Shown here: in pieces, positions 48,208-55,446 of the stretch | How positions within the stretch are numbered: position 1 is the stretch's first letter | How the letters are laid out: the number at the start of each line of letters is the position of its first letter | Assembly (NCBI RefSeq): GCF_029338395.1 | Contig: NZ_CP119810.1 | Location: 248,001 to 312,000 of the forward strand | Source of the DNA: Halorussus caseinilyticus | GTDB lineage: Archaea > Halobacteriota > Halobacteria > Halobacteriales > Haladaptataceae | Reading direction: 5' to 3' | Length of the DNA: 64,000 nt | Notes under the pieces: generated by a model | The model's database searches: none | Told to the model about the DNA's origin: nothing | What the model saw: only the letters and a program-made list of their open reading frames with translations | Program-made: the position numbers and the translations under genes

Positions 48208-48933
48208 ATGCGAAAAGTCAGATTCCGCGACCCGGCGGGAAGCACCCGCGTCGGCGAGTGGACCGACGACGGCATCGAGTTCGCCGACCGGACCTACGAC
48301 GAGTCCGAAGTCGAGGTCCTCCCGCCGAGCGACCCCACCAAAATCGTCTGCGTGGGCCTGAACTACGCCGACCACGCCGCCGAGCGAGACAAGGAACCCC
48401 CCGAGCGACCCCTGCTGTTTCTCAAACCCCCCAACGCGGTGTCGGGCCACGGCGACACCGTGTCGCTCCCCGCCGGAAAGGAGCGGGTGGACCACGAGGC
48501 CGAGTTAGCCGTCGTGATGGGCGAACAGGCCCGGCACGTCGCCGCGGACGAGGCGATGGAGTACGTCGCCGGATTCACCTGCATGGACGACGTGTCGAAC
48601 CGCGACGACCAAGACCGCGAGCAGAACTGGGTCCGCGGGAAGGCCTTCGACAACTCCGCACCGCTCGGCCCGGTGCTGGCAACCCCCGACGAGGTACCGG
48701 ACGACGCCAGCGTCGAGTTGCGCGTGAACGGCGAGACCCGCCAATCGTCTTCGCGCGAGGAGTTCATCTGGTCTGTCCCGGAACTCGTCGAGGAGATTAC
48801 GACCTACCTCACGCTCGAACCCGGCGACGTGATTTCGACCGGCACGCCCGCGGGCGTGGCCCCACTCGAACCCGGCGACGAGGTGGCAGTCGAAGTCGAG
48901 GGCGTCGGCGTGCTTCGCCACGACGTGGCGTAG
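48208..48933 (+). CDS. fumarylacetoacetate hydrolase family protein
   Basis: 241 residues, the usual length of single-domain FAH proteins. IVCVGLNYADHAAERDKEPP is the family's start of the catalytic domain; VDHEAELAVVMG holds metal ligands; NRDDQDREQNWVRGKAFDNS, the active-site Lys/Asp area; GDVISTGTPAGV closes the fold. Members hydrolyse, decarboxylate or isomerise diketo acids such as acylpyruvates or 2-hydroxyhepta-2,4-diene-dioate in aromatic or sugar degradation. It stands just before the aromatic-metabolism genes, so an aromatic ring-cleavage substrate is possible. Confidence 0.9.
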   Translation: MRKVRFRDPAGSTRVGEWTDDGIEFADRTYDESEVEVLPPSDPTKIVCVGLNYADHAAERDKEPPERPLLFLKPPNAVSGHGDTVSLPAGKERVDHEAELAVVMGEQARHVAADEAMEYVAGFTCMDDVSNRDDQDREQNWVRGKAFDNSAPLGPVLATPDEVPDDASVELRVNGETRQSSSREEFIWSVPELVEEITTYLTLEPGDVISTGTPAGVAPLEPGDEVAVEVEGVGVLRHDVA

Positions 48934-49097
48934 CTCGAAACATCTGATTTTTTATCAGAAAAGCGGCGCTCGGACGAGACGGCGCTGTCCGTCCGGATAG
49001 CGTCGCCGTTCGAACTACCGAACTCGTTACATCTGGCCGGAGTACCAACGTTGAAGTAACATAATTATATTACGTTACCTTACAGTAGTTGATAAAA

Positions 49098-50429
49098 ATG
49101 AGCGAGATGTGGAATCCAATCCTCGAAACCATGGCGCTCGACGACCTTCGGGCGTATCAACTCGACCAGTTTCGAGAGCAGGTAGAACACGCGAAAGACG
49201 ACTCCCCGTTCTACGCCGAGAAGCTATCGGGCATCTCTCCCGACGACATCACGTCGCTGGCGGACGTGCGCGAACTCCCGACGACGACGAAAGACGAACT
49301 CCGGGAGGCCCAACGCGAGGGCGACGGACTCTACGGGGACCTCCTCGCCGAGGACGCGGAGTCGGTCGTCTCGTACCACCAGACCTCCGGAACCACCGGC
49401 CGACCCGTCAGACAGGCCGACTCGCTCCCCGACTGGGAGTGGTGGACCGACTCGTGGGCGACGGTCCTCTGGGCGCAGGGCGTCCGACCCGACGACCGGG
49501 TGTTTCTCCCGTTCTCCTACAGCGTCTTCGTGGCGTTCTGGGCCGCCCACGCCGCCGCCGAGCGAATCGGCGCGGAGGTCATCCCCGGCGGCGGGATGTC
49601 CTCGGCACAGCGAGTCGAGAAAATCGAGACGCTGGACCCCACCGTCGTCGCGGTGACGCCGACCTACGCCTTCCGCCTCGCGGAAGTCGCCGAACAGGAG
49701 GGAATCGACCTCGCGGAGACGGCGATAGAGACCGTCGTCTGCGCGGGTGAACCGGGTGCCAGCGTCCCGAGTACGAAGGACGAACTCGAAGCGCTCTGGG
49801 GCGCAGACGTGTACGACCACGCCGGGGCGACGGAGGCGGGAGCGTGGGGATTCGCCTGCGACGGCGACACTCTCGGACTCCACTTCAACGAGGCCCGCTT
49901 CCTCGTGGAAGTCCTCGACGGGGACGACGAACCCGTCGGTCCCGGCGAGACGGGCCGTCTCGTCGTGACGCCGCTGAATCGCTCCGCCCAACCCTACGTC
50001 CGCTTCGAACTCAAAGACCGGATTCGACTCGCCGAGGAGTCCTGTGACTGCGGCCGGACGTTCCGGGTGACCGACGGCGGCGTTCTGGGCCGCGAAGACG
50101 AGTTCCGGACGATAAACGGCACGCTGTTGTCGCCCCGTGCCGTCGAGGACGTGGTTCACGGCTACGACCCCGTGACCAACGAGTTCCGCGTGCGCATCGA
50201 GGACCACCCCGAGAAGGACCTCGACACTCTCGAACTCCGGGTCGAGGCCGACGGGGAGTACGACTACGACGCCGACCGAATCGCGACCGAACTCGACAAG
50301 GAACTGAAAAAGCGGACCCACCTGAGCTTCGACGTGGACGTGTCGAGTCCCGGAACCTTGGACCGCAACGAACTGAAGAGCGACCGATTCACCGACGCCC
50401 GCACCCGCCGAACCCAGTACGAACAATGA
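49098..50429 (+). CDS. phenylacetate-CoA-ligase-like AMP-forming ligase
   Basis: 443 residues, PaaK-type length. VSYHQTSGTTGRPVRQADSL is the P-loop-like AMP-binding motif; YDHAGATEAGAWGFACDG and RLVVTPLNRSAQPYVRFELK, DRIRL the adenylate motifs; the C-terminal lid starts near LGREDEFRTINGTLLSPRAV. It would adenylate an aromatic acid and transfer it to CoA or another thiol. The substrate is unknown; nearby genes suggest a hydroxybenzoate. The upstream region (49045-49095) is very A/T rich with acataattatattacg. It overlaps the next small gene by 4 bp. Confidence 0.88.
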   Translation: MSEMWNPILETMALDDLRAYQLDQFREQVEHAKDDSPFYAEKLSGISPDDITSLADVRELPTTTKDELREAQREGDGLYGDLLAEDAESVVSYHQTSGTTGRPVRQADSLPDWEWWTDSWATVLWAQGVRPDDRVFLPFSYSVFVAFWAAHAAAERIGAEVIPGGGMSSAQRVEKIETLDPTVVAVTPTYAFRLAEVAEQEGIDLAETAIETVVCAGEPGASVPSTKDELEALWGADVYDHAGATEAGAWGFACDGDTLGLHFNEARFLVEVLDGDDEPVGPGETGRLVVTPLNRSAQPYVRFELKDRIRLAEESCDCGRTFRVTDGGVLGREDEFRTINGTLLSPRAVEDVVHGYDPVTNEFRVRIEDHPEKDLDTLELRVEADGEYDYDADRIATELDKELKKRTHLSFDVDVSSPGTLDRNELKSDRFTDARTRRTQYEQ

Positions 50430-50641
50430 CCGACCGACAGCAATCGCTCGAACCCGAGGCAGAGAAACACGAACAGATGCGCGAACACGTAGAGACCATC
50501 GGCGAGGAACTCGCCTCGCTCGAACGACTCGCCGAGGACTGCGAGATTCCGGCCCTCGAACGGAACGCCGCGCAACTGCGCGGCGTTCTCCGCACCGTCG
50601 AGATGAACCTCCCGCCGCGCACGGACCGCGACGAAAACTGA
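50426..50641 (+). CDS. small helical protein coupled to the CoA ligase
   Basis: 71 residues, all polar and helical, with heptad-like spacing (HEQMREHVETIGEELASLER, LAEDCEIPALERNAAQLRGV), probably a coiled coil. The 4-bp ATGA overlap with the ligase gene indicates coupling, so a partner or regulator of that enzyme is likely. No family recognised. Confidence 0.65.
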   Translation: MTDRQQSLEPEAEKHEQMREHVETIGEELASLERLAEDCEIPALERNAAQLRGVLRTVEMNLPPRTDRDEN

Positions 50642-50744
50642 CGTGGCGGGCGACCCACATTAAATTTCTACTTCGAAAGAATATATTTTAAGAAAAATAC
50701 AATCACTCAATAATAATTTATACGATACTACCATCGTGTTTACC

Positions 50745-51644
50745 ATGTCGAACGATGACGACTCGCGGATTGGCGGACGGACTCGAAGAAGCGTTCTGAA
50801 AGGACTCGGCACTGCCGTCGCGTTCGGTGCGGCGACGGGAGTCGCCAGCGCGAGCGACGGCAGGGCGTCGCTGTTGGACGACCCCCAGACCGTGCTGGAC
50901 GACTACGCCGACGAGTACTCCGTGGAACTCGGTAACGGCCGACTCACCACGTTCTCGTCGGTGGACTTCACCGGTCTGCCGAAGTTCGTCGGCGTCCACC
51001 TCAGCGACGGGGCGCTCTCGGGTCTCCCGTCGGCCGAAGAACTCCAAGAGAGCGGCGAGGGAACCGTGATTCACGGCGCGATGAGCAAGGAGTTCGCCGT
51101 GCCGTTCCCCGACACCGCGCCCGCGCCGTTCGAGTTCCTCGGATTCAACTGGAACCCCAACGGCCACCCGCCCAGCGGCGTTCACGACGTTCCCCACTTC
51201 GACGTTCACTTCCACTTCGAGGACGTTGAGACCGTCTACGGAATCGAGCAGTCGGTCGCTGACTACGAGATTCCCGCCGAACGGATGCCGCAGGGATTCG
51301 CCCGCGTTCCGAGTCCGAAGACCGGCGAGTACGTGACGGTCAAGCACATGGGCGAACACCTCATCGACCCGACGACGCCGGAACTCAACGGCGGCGAGTT
51401 CACCAACACCCTGCTCTGGGGTGCCTACGACCTGAACGGCGACGGCGCGGGCGAACTCAACTTCGTCGAGCCGATGCTCACCCGCGAGTACCTCTCGAAC
51501 CTGAGCGGCGAGGACGCGCGACCGGTCGCCCAACCCACCGTCTACCCCTACGACGGGTGGTACCCGAACACGTATACGGTGTACGACCTTGGCACCGAAG
51601 GGTTGGCCGTCGTGCTGGAAGACCTCGAAGAACAGCAAGTTTAA
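50745..51644 (+). CDS. Tat-exported DUF5602/TTHB210-like protein
   Basis: 299 residues from the ATG at 50745. The signal RTRRSVLKGLGTAVAFGAAT is twin-arginine. The mature part has FLGFNWNPNGHPPSGVHDVP and PHFDVHFHFEDVETVYGIEQ, His-rich segments of the DUF5602 (TTHB210-like) group, with a late TVYPYDGWYPNTYTVYD. The His/Asp cluster suggests a metal or small-ligand site; function unknown. Outside the cell. An A/T-rich promoter region (50665-50735) precedes it. Confidence 0.7.
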   Translation: MSNDDDSRIGGRTRRSVLKGLGTAVAFGAATGVASASDGRASLLDDPQTVLDDYADEYSVELGNGRLTTFSSVDFTGLPKFVGVHLSDGALSGLPSAEELQESGEGTVIHGAMSKEFAVPFPDTAPAPFEFLGFNWNPNGHPPSGVHDVPHFDVHFHFEDVETVYGIEQSVADYEIPAERMPQGFARVPSPKTGEYVTVKHMGEHLIDPTTPELNGGEFTNTLLWGAYDLNGDGAGELNFVEPMLTREYLSNLSGEDARPVAQPTVYPYDGWYPNTYTVYDLGTEGLAVVLEDLEEQQV

Positions 51645-51687
51645 TCGACTCGCTCGCTTCTTTTTCGACCCGACGAACGCGGTTTCC

Positions 51688-52056
51688 TTATCCGAGGAAA
51701 CCTGCGCTGTAGGAACTGACGACCAGTGCCAGCACGAACAGCGCCGCGGGCGGAACCATCTCCGAAGTGGCGTCTCCCGCTCGGGCGTGCGTGACGACGG
51801 CCCCGGCCATCACCGCGGCGACGACGAGACCCGCCGCGAGCGCCGCCGTCGATGTCGTGACGAAACTGGCGAACAGGGCGAGACCCGCCACCACTTCGAT
51901 GCCGCCGGTCACGCTTCGGAACCACTGGGGATAGCCGAACCGGTCGAAGTCCTCGACGAGTTGTTCGGCCCCCGCGACTTTCATGCCTCCCGCGCCCAGC
52001 ATCGCAATCCCGAGCAGTCCCTTGATACCGAGAACCGCGGTGCCGACGACACTCAT
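51688..52056 (-). CDS. DoxX-like membrane protein
   Basis: 122 residues with four helices: VLGIKGLLGIAMLGAGGMKV, GGIEVVAGLALFASFVTTST, AALAAGLVVAAVMAGAVVTH and ALFVLALVVSSYSAGFL. The GAGGMKVAGAEQLVEDFDRF, GYPQWFR segment is typical of DoxX/DoxD-like proteins. DoxX relatives act in quinone-linked redox steps or as unknown membrane proteins; being next to a prenyltransferase, a quinone link is worth considering. Confidence 0.75.
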   Translation of the reverse strand: MSVVGTAVLGIKGLLGIAMLGAGGMKVAGAEQLVEDFDRFGYPQWFRSVTGGIEVVAGLALFASFVTTSTAALAAGLVVAAVMAGAVVTHARAGDATSEMVPPAALFVLALVVSSYSAGFLG

Positions 52057-52339
52057 CGGCGGACCCCCTCTTCGCGGTCCGCGTCGGTTCGGCGTTCGAC
52101 GTTCGAGCGTGGATTCTGCGTGAGTTTCGTCATTTCGATTCCCCTGTTTTATTCCGGAACTTAAATATTGTATGTTTTACACGGGTGGTCCTCTCGTCCA
52201 CCGAGTGGCACTCGCTCCGTCCTCTCTCGACACTCGTTCGACGCGATTCGTCTCGAAGATTTGTTTGCTCCTACCATTTATTATTATCTTATTATTTCTA
52301 TAGATAAATTTAAGTGTAAATATCATACATTAGATTAGT

Positions 52340-53296
52340 ATGGAAACTACCGACGTAGACAAAGTATCGCGGACGAAAGCGTGGTTGCTGGCTACTCGGC
52401 CGATGACGGTACCGGTCGGCGTGTCGCCGATTCTCGTCGGCGCGGGGTTGGCCGTCCACGAAGGTATCTTCGTCCTCGAACTCGCGGTGGCCTCGCTCGT
52501 TGCGATGCTACTCAACCAGCAGGGTACCCACTTCGTCAACGACTACTACGACGCCATCCGAGGCATCGACACCGACGACAGGGAGGGATTCACCCGCGTC
52601 ACCCAAGCGGGACTGCTCCCGGCCGAACACGTCAAACAGGGCATCTGGGTCGTCTACGCGCTGACGTTTATCGCGGGCATCTACCCCGTCTACGTCGGCG
52701 GGGTCCCGATGCTCGTCACCGGCGTCTTCCTCGCGGTGACTGGGTTCCTCTACGCCGGACCGCCTGTCTACTACGCCGACAACGGACTCGGCGACTTGGC
52801 TATCTTCTGGGTCTTCGGCGTGTTCCCCGCGGGTGCGACCTACTACCTGATGGCGGTCAAGTCGGCGGGCGTCGGCGCGTTCCCCGTCGAAATCCCGGCG
52901 GGCACCGTCCCGATGGAGGCGTTCGTCGCTAGTCTGGCACCCGCGGGTCTCGCCACCGCGATGATGATTATCAACAACATGCGCGACCGGGAGACCGACA
53001 TGGAGGCGGGCAAGCGGACGATGCCGGTCCGATTCGGTTACGGCTTCAGTCGCGCGGAGTTCGTGGCGATGCTCGGACTCGTCTACCTCGCGCCCGTCGT
53101 ACTGTGGGCGAACTACGGCTTCGAAATCTGGGTCCTCCTCCCCCTCGCGTCGATTCCCTACGCGGTCAGCGTTACCCGACAGGTGCTGAACAACACCGAC
53201 GAGGTGCTGAACCGGGCGCTGGTCCGCGAGGGACACCTGACCACGCTCTACTCGGTGCTGTTCGCAGTCGGCGCGAGCGTTCCGGCGGTCCTCTAA
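52340..53296 (+). CDS. UbiA-superfamily aromatic prenyltransferase, MenA-like
   Basis: 318 residues with about nine helices. First Asp-rich motif NDYYDAIRGIDTDDREG and second NNMRDRETDMEAGKRT bind the Mg-prenyl diphosphate. KAWLLATRPMTVPVGVSPIL resembles the MenA N-terminus. MenA joins a polyprenyl chain to 1,4-dihydroxy-2-naphthoate for menaquinone; other family members prenylate 4-hydroxybenzoate or make archaeal lipids. No other men gene is in the window, whereas chorismate-lyase-like and aromatic hydroxylase genes are, so the acceptor may differ. Upstream 52265-52335 is strongly A/T rich. Confidence 0.85.
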   Translation: METTDVDKVSRTKAWLLATRPMTVPVGVSPILVGAGLAVHEGIFVLELAVASLVAMLLNQQGTHFVNDYYDAIRGIDTDDREGFTRVTQAGLLPAEHVKQGIWVVYALTFIAGIYPVYVGGVPMLVTGVFLAVTGFLYAGPPVYYADNGLGDLAIFWVFGVFPAGATYYLMAVKSAGVGAFPVEIPAGTVPMEAFVASLAPAGLATAMMIINNMRDRETDMEAGKRTMPVRFGYGFSRAEFVAMLGLVYLAPVVLWANYGFEIWVLLPLASIPYAVSVTRQVLNNTDEVLNRALVREGHLTTLYSVLFAVGASVPAVL

Positions 53297-53377
53297 CCGG
53301 TCTCGTCACGTCGGCGTCCGTCGTCGGCGACGACGGACGCCGACCGCTCGATGTTCCGAGTCTTCGCGCGAGGCGGG

Positions 53378-54607
53378 TCAGTACTGGCCGATGCTCGTAA
53401 TCGGGGGGCTACCGTGGGGTCCGTAAGGGGCGTCGTCTAGCCACTCGCCCGCGTCCTCCCAGTAGTCGGCTAGTTTCGCGGCGGCGGCTTTCTTGGTCCT
53501 CGTCACGATACTGTCGTCCCGGAGGTGTTTCAGGGCCTGTCCCGCGGCGTCCTTGTTGAACTCGGCGGCCTTCTGCCGTCGCGCGGCGTACAGTTCGACT
53601 TCGGCGCGCGCGACCGGTTCGGTCTCCGCGCGGTTCGCCACCGCGATGGCCGACGCCGCTTCGTCGGCGTCGGCGACCCCCGAGTTCATCCCTCGCGCGC
53701 CGTAGGGCGCGAACAGGTGGGCGGCCTCTCCCGCCAACAGGACGCGCCGGTGGTCGTCCACGAACGAGTTCGCCGTCACCTGCTTGAACTTGTACTCCGA
53801 GACCCACGACACCCGCGACCGGTATCGCTCGCCGAGGATTCTGGCTATCATCTCGCCGAGGACCTCCTCGCTACAGAGTCGGTCCGGGTCGTCGGACTCC
53901 TTGCACTGGATGTCCACGCGCCACCCGCCCGTGAACGGGACGACCAGCACGTTTCGCCCGCCAACGCCGGGATGCTCGTAGTGGAACACCCGTTCGTTCG
54001 GCAGGGGGTTCTCGGGCGTCTCTTCGACATCCACGATGACGAAGGAGTTCTCGGATTGGCTTCCCCGGAAGTCCACGCCGATTTCGTTTCGGACCGTCGA
54101 ACCGGCACCGTCGGCACCGACGAGGTACTCCGTCTCCCACACGTCGCCGCCCGCGGTTTCGAGGCGAACGCCGTCGGGACCGGATTCGACGCGTTCGACC
54201 GCCGAGTCCCATTGGATTTCGACGCCGTTCTCTTCGAGTGCGTCCCGGAGGAACGTCTCCGTGTCGGTCTGGGGCAGACTGGTGAAGTGGGGGATGTCGC
54301 CCGACCCGCCGGGGTCGTCGTACGTCCGCGAGAACACTTCCTCGCCGCGCCAGAGCGTCCGTCGCGTCGGCCAGACGAGACCCCTCTCGACCAGCCGCTT
54401 GCCGAGTCCGGGGTCGATGCGTTCGAGGGTCCGGAGCGTCGAACCGTGGACGTATATCGCGCGAGTGCCGTCCCGGTTCCGGTCCTCGGAGTCGGCCTCT
54501 ACAATCGTCGTCGGGACGCCGCGGGCCCGGAGCGCGAGCGCCGCGGTCATCCCGGTCGGACCAGCGCCAGCCACGACGACCGGTGATTTTTCCGCCTTCT
54601 CTGACAT
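53378..54607 (-). CDS. FAD-dependent aromatic monooxygenase, PHBH/MhpA-like
   Basis: 409 residues from the ATG at 54607. FAD motif VVAGAGPTGMTAALALRARG, the DG motif YLVGADGAGSTVRNEIGVDF, and the GD-like motif LLAGEAAHLFAPYGARGMNS (Glu replaces the usual Asp). This is the group A flavoprotein fold, adding one hydroxyl to an aromatic ring using NAD(P)H and O2. Substrate candidates are 4-hydroxybenzoate or a prenylated derivative, given the neighbours; this is inference. Its promoter overlaps an AGAACG-N8-CGTTCT palindrome. Confidence 0.85.
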   Translation of the reverse strand: MSEKAEKSPVVVAGAGPTGMTAALALRARGVPTTIVEADSEDRNRDGTRAIYVHGSTLRTLERIDPGLGKRLVERGLVWPTRRTLWRGEEVFSRTYDDPGGSGDIPHFTSLPQTDTETFLRDALEENGVEIQWDSAVERVESGPDGVRLETAGGDVWETEYLVGADGAGSTVRNEIGVDFRGSQSENSFVIVDVEETPENPLPNERVFHYEHPGVGGRNVLVVPFTGGWRVDIQCKESDDPDRLCSEEVLGEMIARILGERYRSRVSWVSEYKFKQVTANSFVDDHRRVLLAGEAAHLFAPYGARGMNSGVADADEAASAIAVANRAETEPVARAEVELYAARRQKAAEFNKDAAGQALKHLRDDSIVTRTKKAAAAKLADYWEDAGEWLDDAPYGPHGSPPITSIGQY

Positions 54608-54623
54608 AGCAACTAATTCGAAA

Positions 54624-54643
54624 AGAACGTTTTTAGGCGTTCT
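54624..54643. promoter_or_regulatory. inverted repeat over the monooxygenase promoter
   Basis: agaacg at 54624-54629 and cgttct at 54638-54643, 8 bp apart, overlap the minus-strand box cctaaaaacg. It is well placed for a repressor. Confidence 0.45.
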
Positions 54644-54702
54644 GGTCGTTCGGTCGTTCCGCGCCGAGACGGAGGCCGCGGGGCGACTCTCCGACGGCAC
54701 CG

Positions 54703-55224
54703 CTACGGGAGGAACTGCTCGAACTCGCCCTTCGGGAAGTACTCGGTAATCGTCATGATGTCGGTGTCGTCGTGGTAGATGTCGTAGGTTCGCTCGAACA
54801 GCACTTCCGCGTCGGGTTCGACGAACGAGGGGCGTCGGTCGTCGGCGGTCACGAGACCCACGTCCACGAGTTCCCGGAACGTCTCGGAACGCTGTTCCCG
54901 GAACAACTTCCCGATACCGACGTTCCCCTCGCGGAGTTCGTCGGCGTACTCGGCGTCGAGACTCGCCAAATCGACTTCGGATTCGGCCCACGCCAGCGGT
55001 TCGGAGTCGCCGGGCGGTTTTAGCTTCACGTGTCGATAGAGCATGTCCTCGCGGACGGTTCGCGTAACGATGTCCACATCGACCGACTGCCCGGTGAGCG
55101 TTTCGAGCAGTCGCATCACGGTCCCGTCGTGCGTGAGAATCAGGCGTTCGACCGTCGAGAACGTCTCGTCGTCTATGGTCGTACACTGCTCTTTGGAACG
55201 GATTGTGTGAATATCCGAGGTCAT
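54703..55224 (-). CDS. chorismate-lyase-like protein (UbiC/DUF98 family)
   Basis: 173 residues. LILTHDGTVMRLLETLTGQS, DVDIVTRTVREDMLYRHVKL, PLAWAESEVDLASL, GNVGIGKLFREQRSETFREL and FERTYDIYHDDTDIMTITEY follow the chorismate pyruvate-lyase fold: the Arg in LLETLTG-VDVDIVTR..RED and a late Glu (TITEYFP) are placed as in UbiC/DUF98. Such enzymes convert chorismate to 4-hydroxybenzoate and pyruvate. The 5' region is extremely A/T rich (55225-55290). It is followed by the monooxygenase in the same direction, 95 bp on. Confidence 0.75.
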   Translation of the reverse strand: MTSDIHTIRSKEQCTTIDDETFSTVERLILTHDGTVMRLLETLTGQSVDVDIVTRTVREDMLYRHVKLKPPGDSEPLAWAESEVDLASLDAEYADELREGNVGIGKLFREQRSETFRELVDVGLVTADDRRPSFVEPDAEVLFERTYDIYHDDTDIMTITEYFPKGEFEQFLP

Positions 55225-55446
55225 AGTTCTTTTTGAATAAATTTTAATATAAATCTTTCTCTTAAATAATTTTTATTTTATAGATTTAGTTTGTACCAAT
55301 AACGTCCCGTGGGCGACGATTTATGGCTCGTCGGTCTTTGTTATCGGTGATAACGGCGAAACGTGCCGAAAGCTCTGTCGTCCGTGGTCGCCTTTTCGAC
55401 GCCCGAACCAGAACCCGTATTTTTCCCCTCCCGCATGTGTCTACTA

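Follow-up and report, generated by a model that had tools for sequence, protein, structure and literature searches.

Do the genes for a chorismate lyase-like protein, a flavin monooxygenase, a UbiA-type prenyltransferase, and a CoA ligase-like protein that lie close together on a 427-kb replicon of Halorussus caseinilyticus (genome size, 4.39 Mb) belong to one pathway, and if so, what would it make? A sequence-only reading of the window, that is, of the whole 64,000-nucleotide stretch of this replicon analyzed here, had proposed a route to a prenylated hydroxybenzoate or quinone, encoded by a neighborhood rather than by one operon. Its five ORFs were recovered with the same boundaries, and family scans (AMP-binding/PaaK-like, DoxX_2, UbiA, FAD_binding_3, and PF01947) agree with its assignments apart from the subtype of the monooxygenase, but its list lacked a 71-aa gene and a gene for a TTHB210-like protein (Table 1). 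In outline, a previously undescribed gene set that would prenylate something derived from 4-hydroxybenzoate is indeed what we find, while the details differ and the product named below is a proposed one.

Table 1. Features of the locus, with positions counted from the first letter of the window
Feature	Position	Strand	Basis
Window-specific insert (acquired cassette, probable)	48928..55388	.	Lies between the FAH and DUF7350 genes
LIG, PaaK-like aryl-CoA ligase, proposed 4-hydroxybenzoyl-CoA ligase	49098..50429	+	AMP-binding and AMP-binding_C_2
ORF71, small LIG partner, 71 aa	50426..50641	+	Overlaps LIG stop; homologue directly 3′ of LIG
TTHB210-like secreted protein	50745..51644	+	Family scan; inside insert, outside conserved block
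DoxX_2 membrane protein	51688..52056	-	Family scan; inside insert, outside conserved block
MenA2, divergent MenA-family UbiA prenyltransferase	52340..53296	+	menA model, separate clade, altered residues, UBIAD1-like predicted fold
FMO, group A flavin monooxygenase, proposed 4-hydroxybenzoyl-CoA 1-hydroxylase (NIH shift)	53378..54607	-	FAD_binding_3; gentisate-linked orthologues
CL, predicted Rv2949c-type chorismate lyase	54703..55224	-	PF01947 match, invariant residues, predicted fold

Five of these genes, LIG, ORF71, MenA2, FMO, and CL, are found again, with gene order and directions preserved, in Actinarchaeum halophilum YIM 93972, where they sit on chromosome 2, and in YIM A00013, both of them haloarchaea that form hyphae and spores (PMC10067837). 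LIG, MenA2, FMO, and CL share 49-72% identity with the copies of both relatives; for YIM 93972 alone, with ORF71 counted in, the range is 53-72%. The comparison of gene neighborhoods across haloarchaea, which the sequence-only reading had suggested, thus reveals neighbors that are conserved together in two other genomes; carriers of the block amount to three genomes only, from two families. The genes are more than a chance neighborhood. Calling the set a neighborhood is incomplete, as it is a conserved block within a probably acquired cassette. No counterparts of the DoxX and TTHB210-like genes were matched in the block loci of YIM 93972 and YIM A00013, for which reason we rejected both as core parts of the pathway; DoxX had previously been counted as a member of the set.

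In the window, a 6.46-kb insert contains the block together with the genes for DoxX and the TTHB210-like protein. In alignments with seven congeners, DNA similarity ends at positions 48921-48927 and restarts at 55389-55392, and congener G006 has ∼32 bp where the window has the insert. The same region in the seven congeners displays the order DUF7405-FAH-DUF7350, with an MFS gene recognized as well in some of them. Since just one species of the genus, out of 18, possesses CL and the block has its nearest kin in a different family, gain by transfer appears likelier than multiple losses, and we regard the insert as more likely a horizontally acquired cassette than the outcome of many losses. The FAH gene next to it (∼48208-48933) was initially a candidate for a role in gentisate metabolism, as catabolic FMOs have FAH genes in their vicinity. 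We rejected this candidate, given that the gene is native to the locus in the seven congeners, all of which lack the block, and that no FAH counterpart was matched in the blocks of the two relatives.

CL matches the Rv2949c-like chorismate pyruvate-lyase profile PF01947 with 61.2 bits (cut-off, 22) and, weakly, the cyanobacterial chorismate-lyase model NF037993 (39 bits; cut-off, 175). A check of catalytic residues, likewise suggested from the sequence alone, is consistent with a functional lyase: R64, R145, and E161, which are invariant across 20 archaeal and bacterial sequences, are all retained. The predicted structure (mean pLDDT, 85) resembles AF1396 (2nwi; Z 17.4, rmsd 2.4, 145 aligned) and Escherichia coli UbiC (Z 11.5, rmsd 3.0, 135 aligned). 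As scores in UbiC's range are also reached by UTRA effector domains from GntR regulators, the fold alone is no proof of a chorismate lyase; residues and profile do more than the fold for the predicted function. CL is rare, being found in 5 of 391 haloarchaeal genomes, that of YIM 93972 among them. The other CL genomes (Natronorubrum texcoconense, Halopiger djelfimassiliensis, a second species of the Natronorubrum genus group, and a Salinarchaeum MAG) combine CL and LIG with an ORF71-like gene and a GNAT-type acyltransferase gene which replaces FMO and MenA2. When contigs were scanned with the CL sequence by itself, no relative came up, while a scan with the CL alignment recovered relatives; the CL query gave no match in the plasmid collection.

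LIG stays far under the cut-offs of the PaaK models, reaching 251 bits against the haloarchaeal PaaK equivalog model, whose cut-off is 700, and by this cut-off it is not a PaaK. A homologue of ORF71, which itself has no match in Pfam, lies immediately 3′ of LIG in all eight loci examined. Orthologues of LIG were detected in 6 of 292 genomes, five of which also possess CL; in the sixth, G255, LIG and an ORF71-like gene are located 3.3 kb from an FMO. That LIG occurs only together with CL or FMO supports 4-hydroxybenzoate as its predicted substrate.

The monooxygenase had been taken for a PHBH-like hydroxylase (PHBH, 4-hydroxybenzoate 3-monooxygenase), an assignment which we reject. Among NCBIfam models, one for general FAD-dependent oxidoreductases fits it best, its score of 71 bits against the PHBH model NF006091/PRK08243 is far under the cut-off of 351, and its orthologues belong with gentisate genes. 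Orthologues with 63-74% identity were detected in 64 of 391 genomes, and gentisate 1,2-dioxygenase is present in 61 of these 64 versus 1 of the 327 others (Fisher p ∼1e-66, with species not being independent). Recurrent partners in 20 FMO neighborhoods were this dioxygenase, both chains (alpha and beta) of an ADP-forming acyl-CoA ligase, a 4HBT_2 thioesterase, FAH, a PcaR/PobR-related IclR regulator, and a Liv-type transporter. Haloarchaea degrade 4-hydroxybenzoate via gentisate with an NIH shift, according to the accounts of Fairley 2002 given in PMC10815724 and PMC4005966, and a gentisate cluster of Bacillus is known to encode a gentisyl-CoA thioesterase (PMC516016). Gene context and the physiology reported for Haloarcula D1 suggest a catabolic role for the FMO orthologues. 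Because they track gentisate 1,2-dioxygenase across haloarchaea, FMO would most likely convert 4-hydroxybenzoyl-CoA to gentisyl-CoA.

The enzyme for gentisate ring cleavage is missing from the block carriers that were surveyed. Three FMO genomes are without gentisate dioxygenase, namely G123 and both surveyed block genomes, those of H. caseinilyticus and YIM 93972. In the phylogeny, the three block-encoded FMOs group together in a single clade (support, 100/96) next to the catabolic FMOs.

Nearly all haloarchaea have one MenA per genome; in H. caseinilyticus and YIM 93972, MenA2 comes in addition to a normal MenA, which is encoded in the men region of the chromosome. A search of the window genome for a second menA and for men genes located the housekeeping copy on the chromosome with menC/menE/menD, so that the prenyltransferase of the window, which falls into a separate clade, is not the ordinary MenA that the sequence-only reading had allowed for. 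All three MenA2 copies group by themselves (support, 100/100), and the stem of their clade measures 1.02 changes per site; the housekeeping haloarchaeal MenA, which follows the species, lies outside it. MenA2 exceeds the cut-off of menA model TIGR00751 (111 bits versus 102) and falls just below that of NF004751 (252.9 versus 264). It retains both Asp motifs, NDYYD and NNxRDxETD, and its predicted model (mean pLDDT, 87.6) shows the UbiA fold, with Z 25.4 to UBIAD1 and Z 21.7 to ApUbiA. All three copies carry N64H, T139A, G141P, P144Y, Y147D, and Q171M; the replaced residues vary little or not at all among 34 haloarchaeal MenA, the members of an orphan paralogue clade, and most of the four bacterial MenA compared. 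A139 and D147 align to T175 and Y182 of human UBIAD1, in which T175I and Y182A markedly lower menaquinone formation (PMC4398444). N102 of UBIAD1 was considered as the counterpart of H64 and rejected, since it corresponds to the conserved N67. The separate, long-stemmed clade and the lost MenA signature residues indicate that MenA2 is probably a MenA-derived enzyme with a changed acceptor which no longer uses 1,4-dihydroxy-2-naphthoate (DHNA). The partner FMO has stayed close to the catabolic enzyme while MenA2 diverged.

We propose, with confidence about evenly divided for and against, that the acquired cassette leads from chorismate through 4-hydroxybenzoate, its CoA ester, gentisyl-CoA, and gentisate to a polyprenyl-1,4-benzoquinol. 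CL would convert chorismate to 4-hydroxybenzoate, from which LIG, together with ORF71, would form 4-hydroxybenzoyl-CoA. FMO would then introduce a hydroxyl group at C1 while the acyl group migrates (NIH shift), a housekeeping thioesterase would release gentisate from the resulting gentisyl-CoA, and MenA2 would prenylate gentisate with loss of CO2 to yield 2-polyprenyl-1,4-benzoquinol. DHNA, the MenA substrate, has its one-ring analogue in gentisate (1,4-dihydroxybenzene-2-carboxylate). We infer all substrates, foremost the MenA2 acceptor and the final product, from the genes; gentisate or gentisyl-CoA is put forward as the acceptor since it is the sole aromatic product expected from the conserved upstream enzymes.

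This benzoquinol route is supported by the conserved block, by its insertion into an otherwise syntenic locus, and by the residues and fold of CL; moreover, catabolic FMOs neighbor CoA ligases and 4HBT thioesterases, and MenD and a chromosomal MenA are present. It draws further on the results for LIG, FMO, and MenA2 given above, including the lack of gentisate dioxygenase in both surveyed block genomes. Against it stand the restriction of the block to three genomes, the case of G123, whose FMO likewise comes without the dioxygenase, the dependence of the catabolic FMO role on gene context and on the Haloarcula D1 physiology, and the fact that the acceptor is not readable from sequence. The block contains no dedicated thioesterase; the window genome has one 4HBT_2 protein, which is chromosomal. 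A literature search for a known gentisate prenyltransferase gave nothing useful. The quinones reported for the block carrier YIM 93972 are MK-8 and MK-8(H2) only (PMC10067837), a finding that speaks against a new quinone being abundant in the conditions used there; the product of the block may thus be formed in small amounts or only in certain conditions, may not resemble a quinone, or may not be produced in the conditions tested.

This lack of any extra quinone reported for YIM 93972 would also suit a cassette that, instead of a respiratory-type quinone, makes an aromatic natural product (a meroterpenoid, pigment, or antioxidant), prenylated or not, from 4-hydroxybenzoyl-CoA or gentisyl-CoA. 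A patchy distribution, plasmid-borne or on a second chromosome, and the GNAT acyltransferase that replaces FMO and MenA2 in the sister CL-LIG loci point the same way. We nevertheless consider such a product unlikely, as MenA2 still has the Asp motifs and the membrane fold that characterize quinone prenyltransferases and the conserved block is devoid of any further tailoring gene. The MK-8 types of YIM 93972, along with the menA model matches, would also be explained if MenA2 were an isozyme still prenylating DHNA for menaquinone, with CL, LIG, and FMO serving a separate purpose. What makes this decidedly unlikely is that the MenA signature residues are missing from all three copies, that their stem is long, that linkage to 4-hydroxybenzoate genes is fixed in three genomes, and that the chromosomes already carry a normal menA.

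In the route first envisaged for this locus, 4-hydroxybenzoate would be prenylated directly by a UbiA-like enzyme and hydroxylated in PHBH style to a ubiquinone- or plastoquinone-like product. A chorismate lyase does accompany a UbiA-superfamily enzyme here, and the weak NF037993 match would be in keeping with that idea; yet the prenyltransferase sits in the MenA branch rather than the UbiA branch, the CoA ligase is left without explanation, and FMO groups with gentisate genes and scores far too low as a PHBH. We thus deem it very unlikely. Finally, the block might be a catabolic fragment in which FMO and LIG degrade 4-hydroxybenzoate and the remaining genes hitch-hike. The FMO orthologues are catabolic by gene context, but the chorismate lyase would produce the very substrate being degraded, both surveyed block genomes are without gentisate dioxygenase, and the block is conserved together with MenA2, leaving this explanation scarcely credible.

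The literature searched, which treats Halobacteria as menaquinone organisms, yielded no benzoquinone-type isoprenoid quinone for this group. Returning to the benzoquinol route, we tentatively suggest, and with somewhat more doubt than belief, that it represents a mobile haloarchaeal pathway for a prenylated 1,4-benzoquinone, with gentisate from the NIH shift on 4-hydroxybenzoyl-CoA taking the place of dihydroxynaphthoate as the acceptor for a re-tooled MenA, independently of the ubiquinone and plastoquinone routes. If true, a degradation enzyme turned biosynthetic and an altered MenA would make up a new quinone pathway that was built from parts and moved between species. The proposed route is testable with few genes and one lipid extraction, partly in organisms already cultured.

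Several known systems share parts of this scheme. A 4-hydroxybenzoate-to-gentisate NIH-shift pathway is reported from Haloarcula sp. D1 (Fairley 2002), and PhgABC of Brevibacillus reportedly constitute another example (Zhao 2018). The block likewise has a CoA ligase and a gentisyl-CoA-type FMO, the latter 63-74% identical to FMOs of gentisate loci, but it would make 4-hydroxybenzoate internally through CL and adds a prenyltransferase, and it includes neither gentisate dioxygenase nor a dedicated thioesterase. With the MenA of the menaquinone pathway, MenA2 has the family, fold, and Asp motifs in common, and its proposed acceptor is a one-ring analogue; it differs in its separate clade, in altered residues of the substrate region, and in not being linked to men genes. 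The supply of head groups for plastoquinone and ubiquinone by lyases of the cyanobacterial and UbiC types resembles the proposed conversion of chorismate to 4-hydroxybenzoate for a quinone, whereas the CoA esters and gentisate proposed here, the MenA-type transferase, and the archaeal host set the block apart. In mycobacteria, the lyase Rv2949c and FadD22 act in the phenolic glycolipid route. The block, too, has an Rv2949c-type lyase adjoining an AMP-forming ligase, but here the ligase is of the PaaK type and no polyketide synthase is part of the set.

Four haloarchaeal loci that encode an Rv2949c-type chorismate lyase (CL) and a PaaK-like aryl-CoA ligase (LIG) also encode an Acetyltransf_9 GNAT acyltransferase with two domains and a length of about 390-407 aa, which suggests that the 4-hydroxybenzoyl group is transferred to an amine and that these loci represent a second undescribed use of 4-hydroxybenzoate made internally. 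Their ORF71-like genes, like the small ORF of the window, code for members of one protein family, helical and only about 70-95 aa long, and always lie immediately 3′ of LIG; the product, probably a partner of the ligase, had no match in Pfam for the two members tested.

Coordinates of the genes and junction sites discussed
Feature	Location	Also in
CL, LIG, ORF71-like gene, GNAT	L016 9685-13284	
CL, LIG, ORF71-like gene, GNAT	L017 7099-10263	
CL, LIG, ORF71-like gene, GNAT	L018 9706-12834	
CL, LIG, ORF71-like gene, GNAT	L019 9851-12928	
Small ORF 3′ of LIG	window 50426-50641	L015, L113, L016, L017, L018, L019, L158
FAH-DUF7350 junction	window 48927/55390	L176 5903-8119; L179 1618-4947
Plasmid MenA paralogue	L142 6028-6939	L138 (G399:C3)
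Putative UbiA-family prenyltransferase	L003 1327-2259 (G000:C3)	
Cluster 1 hypothetical protein (example)	L086 7252-7755	
FAD-linked oxidase/Fe4S4/CCG fusion	L095 11619-14780	L086, L088, L096

The FAH-DUF7350 junction may be an insertion hot spot, because two other Halorussus genomes carry 2-3 kb of other DNA there. Among prenyltransferases, an additional clade of MenA paralogues, with the normal MenA signature retained, is located on haloarchaeal plasmids, adjoined in Natrinema zhouii by a formate/nitrite transporter, and the 185-kb replicon of H. caseinilyticus encodes another putative UbiA-family enzyme.

The 4-hydroxybenzoate/gentisate loci L095, L086, L088 and L096 include an FAD-linked oxidase fused to Fe4S4 and CCG domains (1030-1053 aa). 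Near the catabolic flavin monooxygenase, 14 of the haloarchaeal loci examined encode a hypothetical protein of up to 167 aa (cluster 1) which matches nothing in Pfam or NCBIfam and is possibly an unrecognised component of 4-hydroxybenzoate degradation.
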